Assembly: GCF_001006325.2 (NCBI RefSeq)
Contig: NZ_LBIA02000001.1
Location: forward strand, 2,295,501-2,359,500
DNA: 64,000 bases
Direction of reading: 5' to 3'
DNA from: Afipia massiliensis
Lineage (GTDB): Bacteria > Pseudomonadota > Alphaproteobacteria > Rhizobiales > Xanthobacteraceae
In this document: piece by piece, positions 4,393 through 36,717 of the stretch
Numbering within the stretch: position 1 is the first letter of the stretch
Layout of the letters: the number at the start of each line of letters is the position of its first letter
Notes under the pieces: generated by a model
The model's database searches: none
The model's input: only the letters and a program-made list of their open reading frames with translations
What the model was told of the DNA's origin: nothing
Position numbers and translations under genes: made by a program

Positions 4393-4779
4393 ATGAAGAT
4401 TCGTAAGGCAATGGCAGTTGCGGTGATCGCACTGACGCCGGGCATCGCGCTTGCGCAGAGCGCCACGGTGGAAGGCGCGCGCGACGGCGCAGCCGCGGGT
4501 CATGCCATCGGCGGTCCTGTGGGCGGAGCGGTCGGCGGTACGGTTGGCGCCGCGGTCGGCACCGCCATCGATATTCCGGCGGCCGTGATTTCGTCGGTCA
4601 CCGGTTTGCCGGGACCTTCGGTGGTCGTGAAGGAGCGCGTGGTGGTCGGTGAGCCGCTGCCGAGCTATGTCGAAGTGCGTCCGGTGCCGAGTCACGTCGA
4701 ATATCACTATGCGGTCGTGAACGACCGTCGTGTGATCGTCGAACCGCGGACACGCCGCGTCATTCGCGTCATCGAGTAA
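4393..4779 (+). CDS. DUF1236-type small secreted protein
   Basis: The 128-residue product starts at ATG 4393, chosen because GGAGG lies about five bases upstream; the ATG at 4381 lies before that site. Residues 1-21 form a signal peptide ending ALA-Q. A Gly/Ala-rich stretch (GGPVGGAVGG, GAAVGTAID) resembles glycine-zipper segments. The C-terminal part VVVGEPLPSYVEVRPVP and YHYAVVNDRRVIVEP is typical of DUF1236, a family abundant in Bradyrhizobium-like bacteria with no established function. It is probably periplasmic or envelope-associated. It is a single-gene unit closed by a clear terminator. Confidence 0.82.
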   Translation: MKIRKAMAVAVIALTPGIALAQSATVEGARDGAAAGHAIGGPVGGAVGGTVGAAVGTAIDIPAAVISSVTGLPGPSVVVKERVVVGEPLPSYVEVRPVPSHVEYHYAVVNDRRVIVEPRTRRVIRVIE

Positions 4780-4814
4780 CGGTGTCCTGAGCAGCAGCAC
4801 CGGATGATGCGACG

Positions 4815-4846
4815 AAAAGGCCCCGTCACCGGACGGGGCCTTTTTG
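4815..4846 (+). terminator. Rho-independent terminator after the DUF1236 gene
   Basis: The stem AAGGCCCCGTC pairs with GACGGGGCCTT around a four-base loop and is followed by a T run (TTTTTGT). It lies 36 bases after the stop codon on the same strand. Confidence 0.85.
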
Positions 4847-4859
4847 TAAGAAGATTTTC

Positions 4860-5252
4860 TTATCCCTCCCCCTTGTGGGGAGGGTCGGCGCGAAGCGCCG
4901 GGGTGGGGGTACGCAACGTAGAAAGAACTGTCTCCATCACTCCACTCAAATTCTGATCGATGTCTGAGTTCCAGAACCGAAGAACCCTGAATCCTTGTGA
5001 AGCCAGAAAAGCATCGCGCGCTTGATCGGACTTACGGCCCGGATGAATTCCATGCTGGCCGCCGTCCGGTTCGATAATCAGGCGATTACGGAAGGAAGCG
5101 AAATCAACGATGTATCGCCCGATGGGGGATTGTTTACGAAAATGGAAGCCGAGTGTTTTCAATTCACGTAACTTCACCCACAGTTTAACTTCCTGCGGTG
5201 TGAGCTGTTTGCGAAGTGCGCGGGCATTTTCGTTTGGCCCGATAACCCCCAC
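4860..5252 (-). CDS. DUF559-family PD-(D/E)XK endonuclease (Vsr-like), carried inside inverted repeats
   Basis: The 130-residue protein has the full DUF559 pattern: ARALRKQLTPQEVKLW, FHFRKQSPIGRYIVDF (catalytic Asp), LIIEPDGGQH (catalytic Glu region) and GFRVLRFWNSDI. The family belongs to the PD-(D/E)XK nuclease fold related to very-short-patch repair endonuclease; its substrates are not established. The GTG start at 5252 lies inside the right repeat arm. The last residues, TPTPALRADPPHKGEG, and the TAA stop come from translation of the left arm. The gene is compact with no sign of decay. It lies between DUF1236 and gltD but belongs to neither operon. The start is the least certain point: no good Shine-Dalgarno is seen. 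Confidence 0.85.
   Translation of the reverse strand: MGVIGPNENARALRKQLTPQEVKLWVKLRELKTLGFHFRKQSPIGRYIVDFASFRNRLIIEPDGGQHGIHPGRKSDQARDAFLASQGFRVLRFWNSDIDQNLSGVMETVLSTLRTPTPALRADPPHKGEG
4862..4910. repeat. Family B repeat arm, left end of the DUF559 cassette
   Basis: The arm reads TCCCTCCCCCTTGTGGGGAG, then a perfect hairpin CGGCGC-GAA-GCGCCG, then GGGTGGGGGT. It is inverted relative to the arm at 5245-5297; the outer 23 bases and the GGGTGGGGGT inner end match, while the central hairpin differs. The TAA stop of the DUF559 gene lies at its outer edge. Confidence 0.9.
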
Positions 5253-5297
5253 CCGGCTGACCTGCGGTCAGCCACCCTCCCCACAAGGGGGAGGGAT
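5245..5297. repeat. Family B repeat arm, right end of the DUF559 cassette
   Basis: Read on the minus strand this arm is TCCCTCCCCCTTGTGGGGAG, then the perfect hairpin GGCTGACC-GCA-GGTCAGCC, then GGGTGGGGGTTAT. It is the inverted partner of 4862-4910. The GTG start codon of the DUF559 gene is part of the GGGTGGGGG block. TA dinucleotides lie just outside both cassette ends. Confidence 0.9.
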
Positions 5298-5325
5298 AGT
5301 AGGCCGAACGCTCTCCCAAATCCGC

Positions 5326-6783
<1,458 letters not shown>

Positions 6784-32905: not shown

Positions 32906-34753
32906 ATGTTGCGCGGTATTAGAGCGCGCTGCTTCACTTCTCCCCAGCGGGGAGAGGTCGCGAGCGAATGCGAGCGGGTGAGGGGGTTCGGAAGTCTTCT
33001 TGAGACATCCATTGCCCCTCACCCCACCCCTCTCCCCAGCGGGGTGAGGGGGCAGATTGTCATCGCGGAGGGACTTCGTCCTCACCATGAGTTTCAGGGT
33101 TTTGAACCTAGGCTGCTCCGCCGCTTCGCCGCCGACGAACGCGGCAACATCGCGATCATGGGCGCGGCAAGCCTTCTGATGATCATCGCCTGTACGGCAC
33201 TGGGCGTCGATGTCGGCACCATCTTCGCCGACAAGCGCCGGACCCAGAGCGCTGCCGATCTTGCGGCCATTGTCGCTGCAAGCGACCTCCCCAATGCGTC
33301 CCGCGCTGCTGCGGCGACCGTCGCCAAAAACAACTATCCCCCGGAGTCGCTCGTGGCTGTCGAACCCGGTGTTTACACGGCGAAGGCGTCTCTCGCGCCG
33401 CAGCAGCGCTTCGTCGCGGGCGCGACACCCGCCAATGCGGTGCGTGTTTCGCTGAAAACCAAAACGCCGCTGTATTTCGGCAAGGTGTTGACCGGCGACA
33501 GCCAATGGAATCTCAAGGCCACCGCCATCGCCAGCACCACGCAGCTTGCGACCTTCGCCATCGGCTCGCGGCTGGTCTCGCTCAATGGCGGGCTGCTGAA
33601 CGCGCTGCTCGGCGGCATGCTCGGCACCACGCTCTCGCTCTCGGCGATGGACTACAACGCGCTGCTCAACGCGAACATCGATGCGTTCGATTTCCTCCCC
33701 GCGCTGGCGACGCGCGCGAACCTGACCGGCGTCACCTACGAGGCGCTGCTGAGCAGCAACCTGAAGGTGACCGACATCGTGGCGGCGCTGCAGACTGCAG
33801 CCGCTGGCAACAGCGGCGCGATCACGGCGCTCTCCAGCATCTCATCGTCGCTATCGGGTCTGACCACGCGGATTACGCCGGCCTCGCTGATCAACGTCGG
33901 GCCGTATTCGAGTCTCACCGTCGGGCAGAAGCCAAAGGTCGGCGCGAGCGTGTCGGCGCTCGATCTGCTCTCGGCCGCGGCGGCGCTCGCCAACGGCACC
34001 AACCAGATCGCGGCGAATGTGAACCTGTCGCTGCCCGGCATCGCGGGCGTGACCTTGCTGGCGACGGTGGGCGAGCGCCCGGTGGGCACGAGCTGGATCA
34101 CCGTGGGCGCCGCGGGCGCCAGCGTCCACACCGCGCAGACGCGTATCCTGCTCAAGATCCAACTGGTCGGCTCGGGCGCAGTGTCGGTGGTCAACCTTCC
34201 GGTCTATGTCGAGATCGCAGCGGGCACCGCGACGCTCAACGCGGTGTCGTGCGGCTATCCCAACGTCAATACGTCAACGGTGACGCTCGGCGTCTCGCCC
34301 GGCATTGTGGACGCGTGGATCGGCGACGTGACGCCGGCCATGATGACGAATTTCTCCACCAAGCCGAATCCGCCGCCAGCCAATATCGTCAACCTCGGGA
34401 TCATCCAGGTATCAGGCCGGGCGCATGCCACCATGGCCAACACATCGCCGACCAGCGTGAACTTCAGCTACGCGGACATTCAGGCGCGCACCAAGAAGAC
34501 GGTGAACACCACGTCGTTCACCGCATCGCTGACGTCGAGCCTTCTGGGTGATCTGCAACTCGGCGTGCAGCTCGGGCCGCTCGGCCTGCCGATCCCCGGC
34601 ATCGGCGCGCTGGTGGCCAGCATTATCGGCGGCGCGACCGGCTCGATCGACACGCTGCTCAACTCGGTGTTGCAGACCCTCGGTGTCGGCCTCGGACAGG
34701 CGGATGTCTGGGTCAACGGCATCCGCTGCGACGGCGCGGTGCTGGTGAATTAG
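32906..34753 (+). CDS. TadG-like pilus-assembly/envelope protein carrying an in-frame repeat insertion
   Basis: The 615-residue protein starts at ATG 32906, with GGAGG nine bases upstream, just after the TadE stop. Residues about 12-49 (TSPQRGEVASECERVRG ... HPTPLPSGVRG) are translated from a family B repeat pair and have no counterpart in the family. The normal TadG start follows near residue 72: FAADERGNIAIMGAASLLMI, a membrane helix, then the pseudopilin-like KRRTQSAADLAAIVAAS. The remainder is a large, weakly conserved Ser/Thr/Ala-rich extracytoplasmic region. TadG proteins act in Flp/Tad pilus assembly or anchoring. The reading frame is intact across the insertion. Confidence 0.85.
   Translation: MLRGIRARCFTSPQRGEVASECERVRGFGSLLETSIAPHPTPLPSGVRGQIVIAEGLRPHHEFQGFEPRLLRRFAADERGNIAIMGAASLLMIIACTALGVDVGTIFADKRRTQSAADLAAIVAASDLPNASRAAAATVAKNNYPPESLVAVEPGVYTAKASLAPQQRFVAGATPANAVRVSLKTKTPLYFGKVLTGDSQWNLKATAIASTTQLATFAIGSRLVSLNGGLLNALLGGMLGTTLSLSAMDYNALLNANIDAFDFLPALATRANLTGVTYEALLSSNLKVTDIVAALQTAAAGNSGAITALSSISSSLSGLTTRITPASLINVGPYSSLTVGQKPKVGASVSALDLLSAAAALANGTNQIAANVNLSLPGIAGVTLLATVGERPVGTSWITVGAAGASVHTAQTRILLKIQLVGSGAVSVVNLPVYVEIAAGTATLNAVSCGYPNVNTSTVTLGVSPGIVDAWIGDVTPAMMTNFSTKPNPPPANIVNLGIIQVSGRAHATMANTSPTSVNFSYADIQARTKKTVNTTSFTASLTSSLLGDLQLGVQLGPLGLPIPGIGALVASIIGGATGSIDTLLNSVLQTLGVGLGQADVWVNGIRCDGAVLVN
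32937..33053. repeat. Family B inverted repeat pair inserted in frame within the TadG-like gene
   Basis: The left arm is TCTCCCCAGCGGGGAGAGG with an inner end GGGTGAGGGG; the right arm is the inverse, CCCCTCACC and CCTCTCCCCAGCGGGGTGAG. Total length is about 117 bp, a multiple of three, with no stop codon in the reading frame used by the host gene. Confidence 0.87.
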
Positions 34754-34759
34754 TTCCTT

Positions 34760-34892
34760 CCCTCTCCCCTTGTGGGAGAGGGTGCCTGAGCGAAGCGAAG
34801 GCGGGTGAGGGGTGAACTCTCGACTGATAGGAGCCCCCTCACCCGGCTCGCATCTGACGATGCTCGCCACCCTCTCCCACAAGGGGAGAGGG
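34760..34892. repeat. Family B inverted repeat pair (about 133 bp)
   Basis: CCCTCTCCCCTTGTGGGAGA at the left and its inverse at the right end. The inner ends are GGGTGAGGGG and CCCCCTCACCCGG. It lies between the TadG-like stop and the hisS start. Confidence 0.9.
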
Positions 34893-36586: not shown

Positions 36587-36717
36587 ACCCTCTCCCCTTG
36601 TGGGAGAGGGTGGCGAGATCGAGTGAAACGAGATCGAGCCGGGTGAGGGGGCGGAATTCATCACCCCCTCACCCGCCCTCGCTTCTCTCGGGCACCCTCT
36701 CCCACAAGGGGAGAGGG
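36587..36717. repeat. Family B inverted repeat pair (about 131 bp)
   Basis: CCCTCTCCCCTTGTGGGAGA at the left, an internal GATCGAG-TGAAA-CGAGATC region, and the inverse of the left arm at the right end. It begins five bases after the hisS stop codon and precedes the tautomerase gene. Confidence 0.9.

Follow-up and report, generated by a model that had tools for sequence, protein, structure and literature searches.

The window analyzed here is a 64,000-nt stretch of the Afipia massiliensis genome, G000 (G000:C1:2295501–2359500). It carries a short DUF559 gene enclosed by two arms in inverted orientation, both of which have a G-rich block on the gene side of an outer and an inner hairpin:

4860..5252, minus strand: predicted DUF559 nuclease gene (Vsr-fold, PD-(D/E)XK-like), 130 aa, GTG start, TAA stop
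4861..4911, no strand assigned: arm at the gene's 3' end, with outer hairpin 4864–4884 (CCCTCCCC-5-GGGGAGGG), inner hairpin 4886–4900, and third-strand block GGGTGGGGG at 4901–4909
5246..5298, no strand assigned: arm at the gene's 5' end, with third-strand block 5246–5254 containing the GTG start, inner hairpin 5255–5273, and outer hairpin 5275–5295

The gene product matched DUF559 in Pfam at E 2.8e-35; otherwise the search returned PF18741 alone, below its cut-off, and no known transposase family. DUF559 is a common family of unknown function, and its members are often labelled very-short-patch-repair endonucleases. An outer inverted repeat of 25 nt, 100% complementary (4861–4885 and 5274–5298), encloses the gene. 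Together with the ORF call and the Pfam match, this bears out the description, in an earlier note on this DNA, of a DUF559 gene lying between two inverted arms. The note's claim that the gene starts in one arm and takes its last residues and stop from the other also agrees with the sequence: the CCCCCACCC block of one arm contains the GTG codon (5250–5252), and the other arm includes the C-terminal tail and the TAA. Folding likewise confirmed that both inner hairpins are perfect. In single-strand DNA folding, the two strands gave z-scores of −3.90 and −4.85 for the arm at 4861..4911 and −4.92 and −4.26 for that at 5246..5298, and either strand of both arms folded better than 200 of 200 shuffles. 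Two details changed: the identical outer stretch, put at 23 bases, is slightly longer at 25 nt, and the TA thought to lie outside both ends is present (TA/TAT) but belongs to the inverted repeat, with no direct target repeat.

Arms of this kind recur throughout the genome. The outer palindrome pattern (up to three mismatches) has 12 copies in the window against 0.49 expected from shuffles; a 17-nt arm core (up to two mismatches) has 33 copies in G000 against 0 for a reversed control, and a more general outer-palindrome pattern has 94 against 3. The family PF04480 has six matches in G000, comprising five stand-alone DUF559 genes, one of which (L005) has an internal stop, and one domain that ends a long frame, SpoU-like by eye. 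Among the 79 of the 94 palindromes that were listed, 35 neighbor distances are below 1000 bp: 28 measure 52–145 bp ("empty" pairs), five of 411–485 bp are exactly the five stand-alone DUF559 genes, and the remainder are one of 286 bp and one of 892 bp, the latter spanning two separate elements. The 286-bp arm pair (L003:268–574) has two more, unrelated inverted-repeat pairs nested inside it. Three empty pairs lie in the window:

32938..33052, no strand assigned: empty pair of a different subtype (TTCTCCCC / CCTCTCCCC), palindrome pattern match
34760..34892, no strand assigned: empty pair of the CCCTCTCCC..GGGAGAGGG subtype, pattern match, folding z −11.6
36588..36717, no strand assigned: empty pair of the CCCTCTCCC..GGGAGAGGG subtype, pattern match, folding z −10.5

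The earlier note had read these pairs, at 32.9, 34.8, and 36.6 kb, as empty copies of the cassette's own repeat. The pairs exist, but they differ in arm subtype (CTCTCCCC, CCCTCTCCCC) from the window cassette; empty pairs of its own subtype occur elsewhere in G000, for example at 541724–541858 and 2293999–2294124. Empty pairs look like non-autonomous counterparts of the cassette. For one common empty subtype in G000, CCTCTCCCCTTGTGGGAGAGG, no cassette with the same arm was seen by eye, which counts against the explanation favored below, in which the nuclease would move both kinds of unit. Orthologous sites vary in what they hold. A relative (G001) has the same type of pair at the site of 36588..36717, and at the 34.8-kb site G004 has the window's pair, G024 and G002 have a DUF559 cassette instead, and G006, G001, and G008 have a pair of another type. 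At this site G011, G012, and G005 have just 46–54 bp, and additional relatives carry different sequence.

The arms have a more specific anatomy than that of a simple hairpin. Both window arms fit the order expected of an intrastrand triplex: a pyrimidine stem, a loop, a purine stem, and then a third strand that corresponds to the purine strand read in reverse. Of the 346 arms of 173 DUF559 loci, 272 had a pyrimidine/purine stem of 7 bp or longer; 118 of the 173 loci had one on both sides. Third strands were sought over 70 nt on the gene side by a rule, read in reverse, that places G on G and either A or T on A; 214 of the 272 arms had a perfect one, compared with 2 of 272 when the DNA next to the stem was shuffled once. 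An arm's own third strand fitted better than those of arms with different stems of equal length in 231 of 270 cases; these counts are non-independent because the loci are related. In an example from Chloroflexota, the stem GGGGGAAGG is paired with the third strand GGATGGGGG. Polarity is pronounced: 202 arms have a perfect third strand on the inner side alone and 22 on the outer side alone, 11 have one on each side, and 37 have none. In Deinococcus psychrotolerans (L318:575–1090), the third strand seems by eye to face away from the gene, opposite to the usual polarity. Judged by this anatomy, which the earlier note had missed, each arm is a predicted intrastrand-triplex motif. A class II intrastrand triplex motif is described from E. 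coli under the names BoxC, PIT, and TM-ECO (Holder et al. 2015, PMC4666352); that account, which cites Hoyne and Maher, reports triplex folding of TM-ECO in the test tube and traces knowledge of the repeat in E. coli to the 1990s.

To gauge how general the arrangement is, each DUF559 match was given an inverted-repeat score, the best inverted repeat between its flanks, with flanks displaced outward as the control and a threshold of at least 14; the score takes any inverted repeat, G-rich or not (that at L215 is not G-rich). The case named in advance as telling against the idea was that most DUF559 genes lack arms. Instead, inverted repeats of broadly this type, in many arm subtypes, flank 132 of the 173 stand-alone loci, against 2 of 306 displaced controls. 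The 173 loci are a non-random sample: 49 genus matches with E <1e-30 (43 with arms; displaced 0/91), 44 family loci (37; displaced 0/79), of which 27 were best matches and 17 were hand-chosen from seven genomes with several matches, and the best 80 of 539 confirmed candidates in named genomes from a wide scan (52; displaced 2/136). Three partial genus matches were excluded, and at least three loci are counted twice under two names (L168/L260, L227/L257, L080/L187). By taxon, read from record titles, many of them metagenome bins, the named loci scoring at least 14 were 31 of 43 in Alphaproteobacteria, 8 of 12 in Beta/Gammaproteobacteria, 2 of 3 in other Proteobacteria, 4 of 4 in Gastranaerophilales, 3 of 3 in Chloroflexota, 1 of 2 in Omnitrophota, and 3 of 6 in bacteria without a taxon label, together with 0 of 7 from Delta-type, Chlamydiae, Clostridia, Doudnabacteria, and Bacteroidota records.

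Plasmids gave a divided picture. A plasmid collection held 43 records with a DUF559 match, from which eight were chosen: four reached the threshold, namely two from Deinococcus (20 and 53), one from Sinorhizobium meliloti (96), and one from Azospirillum (24). The four that fell below it, which count against the favored explanation, came from Synechocystis (10, arms visible by eye), Picosynechococcus (11), N. gonorrhoeae (10, one degenerate arm by eye), and P. aeruginosa (8, none). DUF559 domains in long fused frames, used as a control, had arms at 0 of 9 loci, with scores of 7–12. In one of these (L006:418–1812), the domain sits at the C-terminal end of a long frame that resembles, by eye, a SpoU-type RNA methyltransferase; the other eight (L026–L033) were classed with it from their weaker score and frame length (403–529 aa). 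Weak DUF559 matches in frames of 403–529 aa recur across the genus.

Gene and arms also behave as one unit in comparisons between loci. Of the locus pairs whose DNA is homologous across the gene, 225 were excluded because the homology extended more than 250 bp beyond the gene or because a second segment matched; they mostly represent the same ancestral site. Many cassettes remain at one site over long times, which counts against ready movement by the nuclease. The remaining 110 pairs, cassettes at different sites, had scores of at least 14 on both sides; loci are shared among them, and each pair was measured on one member. Homology passed an arm by more than 25 bp in none of the 110. It ended near the arm end (from 25 bp outside to 60 bp inside) at 47 left and 73 right ends and otherwise further inside; it often stopped deep within the arm (by a median of 85 bp at the left end), a point against the favored explanation. 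In four pairs (L001/L276, L261/L276, L002/L265, and L004/L265), it ended within 6 bases of both arm ends. One genome (G101) holds two cassettes 35 kb apart that are 93.6% identical over 455 bp, and their flanks are unrelated except for some 20 bp in one of them. G055 and G132 share a cassette at an orthologous site where G163 has a clearly different cassette with different arms. Between paaD and paaZ, D. psychrotolerans carries a cassette and Deinococcus strain QL22 carries none, with about 77% identity between them; we count this site in favor of mobilization. It is well supported that the gene and its arms form one small unit resembling a mobile element.

The ends of this unit left little trace of a conventional insertion. 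Over 94 cassettes with scores of at least 20, direct repeats at the ends averaged 1.22, against 1.27 with shuffled right flanks (130 of 200 shuffles reached the observed value), and the cassette ends showed no TA consensus; TA as a target, which the earlier note had raised, was not borne out. Comparison of orthologous loci, which the note had advised as a way to find a precise empty site or target duplication, revealed a different frame or a gap at the window locus in the 11 relatives viewed, out of 20 orthologous stretches, and neither of the two features sought. A clean empty site was rejected for this locus; this goes part of the way towards the note's second refuting case, that of loci with no precise empty site, and counts, as does the lack of a target duplication, against the favored explanation. 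Eight relatives (G006, G027, G001, G018, G021, G004, G008, and G011) have a frame judged ynfA-like by eye, and three (G010, G003, and G012) have a short gap. The ynfA-like frame (L037–L042, L044, and L047; window 4779–5326) lies between the upstream gene and gltD. Over 300 kb of G000 compared with stretches of G006, G027, and G001, no exact cassette-free allele was present, and intergenic DNA was replaced as a whole. No empty sites were recognized on plasmids among the records listed (Sinorhizobium 40 of 162, Azospirillum 20 of 22).

E. coli offered a further point of reference. The ycjD gene of this species was considered as a two-armed cassette and rejected, both arms lying on its 3' side with the inner one overlapping the gene end; this counts against the favored explanation. 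In E. coli K-12 (L036:5217–5465), these two inverted arms enclose a 39-nt piece with 90% identity to the 3' end of the gene, resembling the remnant of a cassette with an internal deletion. Alleles at pstA–pstB differ by 92 bp bounded by ACACGGTT repeats, through deletion or insertion, and a yiiM–cpxA polymorphism in strain MEW is a replacement. In 3362 of 5426 E. coli genomes, a sapF–ycjD–fabI query was matched over at least 80% of its length. In three strains without a ycjD match (L104, L105, and L106), an efflux-pump operon adjoins sapF, at the place of ycjD in K-12.

The nuclease itself looks alive and under purifying selection, judging from its sequences. Four putative catalytic residues, assigned by analogy (D50, E61, D63, and H67), are among sixteen positions invariant in 37 sequences, and dN/dS among orthologs was about 0.04–0.35 in the values listed. 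The arms of orthologous cassettes are likewise intact: 14 loci sharing flank homology with L007 have a perfect stem in 25 of 28 arms and a perfect third strand in all 25, and about half of the synonymous sites differ among five genus members. An AlphaFold model of the window nuclease (mean pLDDT 82.5) retrieved 3HRL as the best match in a fold search, the homing endonuclease I-Bth0305I (3R3P) as the second (TM-score 0.71 by target), and E. coli Vsr more weakly. In Caulobacter, deletion of a methylase elicits a DNA damage response dependent on the DUF559 protein VsrA (PMC12907096), which makes nuclease activity plausible, by analogy, in the DUF559 family.

Turning to the link between nuclease and repeats, arm similarity tracks protein similarity within genomes (rho 0.24; 17 genomes, 53 cassettes, 63 pairs), and permuting within genomes gave a value this high 7 times in 2000, or 9 times in 2000 when the run was repeated on the same pairs; the covariation rests on four close pairs, and copying of whole cassettes would give the same. 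The median palindrome excess per Mb was 14.8 in the 110 of 149 family genomes with a strong stand-alone DUF559 and 6.3 in the 39 without, where "without" was judged from the best E-value and genome completeness was uncontrolled; because the cassettes' own two palindromes are counted, the difference is somewhat inflated. By genus, the median density was higher with the nuclease in 16 of the 17 genera having both kinds (narrowly in g14 and g16); the omission of g41 and g7 in this analysis was post hoc. All six genomes of g41 contain 110–158 palindromes (controls 15–24) with 0–1 weak DUF559 matches and no Y1 match, and in one of them, G099 (L246–L255), many palindromes form clear pairs. These may be orphan elements or may be served by another mobilizer; such palindrome-rich, DUF559-poor genomes imply that pairs can persist or spread without the nuclease, which counts against the favored explanation. 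A RAYT as the mobilizer in G000 was rejected, as no Y1 match was present; any Y1 match occurred in only 3 of 29 genus genomes, and in 0 of 13 family genomes chosen for having 0–1 DUF559 matches.

The earlier note had proposed that the cassette may be an autonomous form of a repeat, with the nuclease perhaps in a transposase's role. This stands in part: arm-bounded homology, duplicates, and the nuclease-linked palindrome density support a gene–arm unit, and the empty pairs look non-autonomous. The explanation we favor starts from what was observed, namely this unit with its arm-bounded homology, its duplicate at an unrelated site, its arm/protein covariation, its link to palindrome density, and its purifying selection, and from there we infer arm recognition, cutting, and the route of movement. 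We propose, with reasonable rather than firm confidence, that the nuclease recognizes the folded arms and cuts or nicks there, moving its own unit and, in trans, the arm-only pairs. Each arm would form a pyrimidine/purine hairpin, with a G-rich third strand on its gene side folding back on the purine strand. DUF559 would recognize arms folded in this way, probably in single-stranded DNA exposed during replication, and would nick or cut at them. A copy of the unit would then enter either another intergenic location or a homologous site that has been broken. Arm-only pairs may be kept spreading in trans, as is thought for RAYTs with REPINs.

The similarity of the predicted fold to I-Bth0305I is also what a homing-type drive would lead one to expect, in which cleavage by the nuclease at unoccupied alleles or at other arm sites leads to copying of the cassette by recombinational repair, with no self-transposition to new sites. 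Different cassettes or pairs occupying the same intergenic site according to species (L304/L306 versus L309, and the 34.8-kb site) and intergenic stretches that look replaced as a whole are in keeping with such a drive. We nevertheless consider it unlikely, since two closely similar cassettes occur at separate places in one genome and arm-only pairs are widely scattered, both of which require that new sites be reached. Somewhat less probable still is that other machinery moves the arms and that DUF559 is hitch-hiking cargo, for example a repair or defense nuclease, that gained arms once. Purifying selection and orthologous retention do suggest a gene useful to the host, VsrA is tied to DNA damage and repair in Caulobacter (PMC12907096), and palindrome-rich genomes without DUF559 or Y1 matches exist; however, the only gene-sized pair intervals among the listed G000 palindromes contain DUF559, and palindrome density follows the nuclease across all but one of the genera compared. 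That the arms are ordinary hairpins (terminators or host REP-like DNA) serving DUF559 expression or filling hot intergenic sites is very improbable: they do overlap reading-frame ends, and several unrelated repeat families do share the same sites, but homology never runs more than 25 bp past the arms in the cassette pairs at different sites, third strands track their stems, and the long fused-frame domains have no arms.

Our preferred reading, mobilization by the nuclease, opens onto a broader one: a new class of minimal mobile element, spread over several phyla, with a Vsr-fold nuclease as its sole protein, triplex ends that it recognizes, and arm-only derivatives that are the BoxC/PIT/TM repeats of hundreds of genomes. 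We judge this broader reading to be evenly balanced. Tying a triplex repeat to a nuclease gene as the end of a unit would offer an origin and a candidate enzyme for BoxC/PIT/TM, a widespread repeat whose origin has been unexplained for decades. If true, it would also give DUF559 a role and would mean that the REPIN/RAYT lifestyle is served by a second enzyme unrelated to the first. No link between DUF559 and these repeats appeared in titles or the starts of abstracts of the papers listed by searches of the open-licence part of PubMed Central, and reports elsewhere are possible.

Among known systems, the CGTC-tagged REPs are likewise palindromic repeats of related Alphaproteobacteria with no known transposase, as described by Di Nocera 2013 (PMC3733652), but their motif is unlike the cassette arms. 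Repeats of the form CGTCCCCGC..GCGGGGACG, CGTC-REP-like by eye, take some orthologous sites instead of cassettes. A CGTC-REP-like family of palindromic pairs (CGTCCCCGCGAAAGCGGGGACCC..) lies beside a triplex arm at G000:C1 ~2386217–2386335, and a CGTCCCCGCGAAAGCGGGGACCC.. pair at G006:C7 66410–66568 occupies the site that holds cassette L002 in G000. The REPIN–RAYT system, in the account of Bertels and Rainey 2011 (PMC3116915), resembles the cassette in its inverted palindrome pairs with a short spacer, in the single gene adjoining the same palindromes, and in the presence of several flavors per genome, each with its own gene. In contrast, the DUF559 fold is unrelated (Vsr-like rather than Y1 HUH) and the cassette palindrome is a triplex motif; because G000 has no Y1 enzyme, the cassette is not a member of that system. 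Nor is it a known insertion sequence, since it has neither a known transposase nor a target duplication.

I-Bth0305I and other Vsr-like homing endonucleases have the closest fold to the cassette nuclease after 3HRL, but no intron, intein, or interrupted gene was noticed at the cassette, and multi-copy arm-only pairs are present. Caulobacter VsrA belongs to the same domain family and is compared with Vsr by its authors; it differs in being proposed as a mismatch repair enzyme (PMC12907096). A further likeness is to BoxC/PIT/TM-ECO, with which the cassette arms share the pyrimidine stem, loop, purine stem, linker, and third strand, and which also occurs in inverted pairs (PMC4666352). According to Holder 2015, the motif is found in 262 proteobacterial genomes, variability at its loci exceeds that at control sites, no remnant of a transposase or integrase was ever seen near it, and its neighbors have no consistent function; the main text of that paper nowhere uses "nuclease", "DUF", or "ycjD" (PMC4666352). 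TM-ECO number 9 of its Table 1 (MG1655 1,351,204–1,351,239) is the arm beside ycjD (PMC4666352). What sets the present case apart is that the motif bounds DUF559 cassettes and includes subtypes beyond the TM-ECO consensus.
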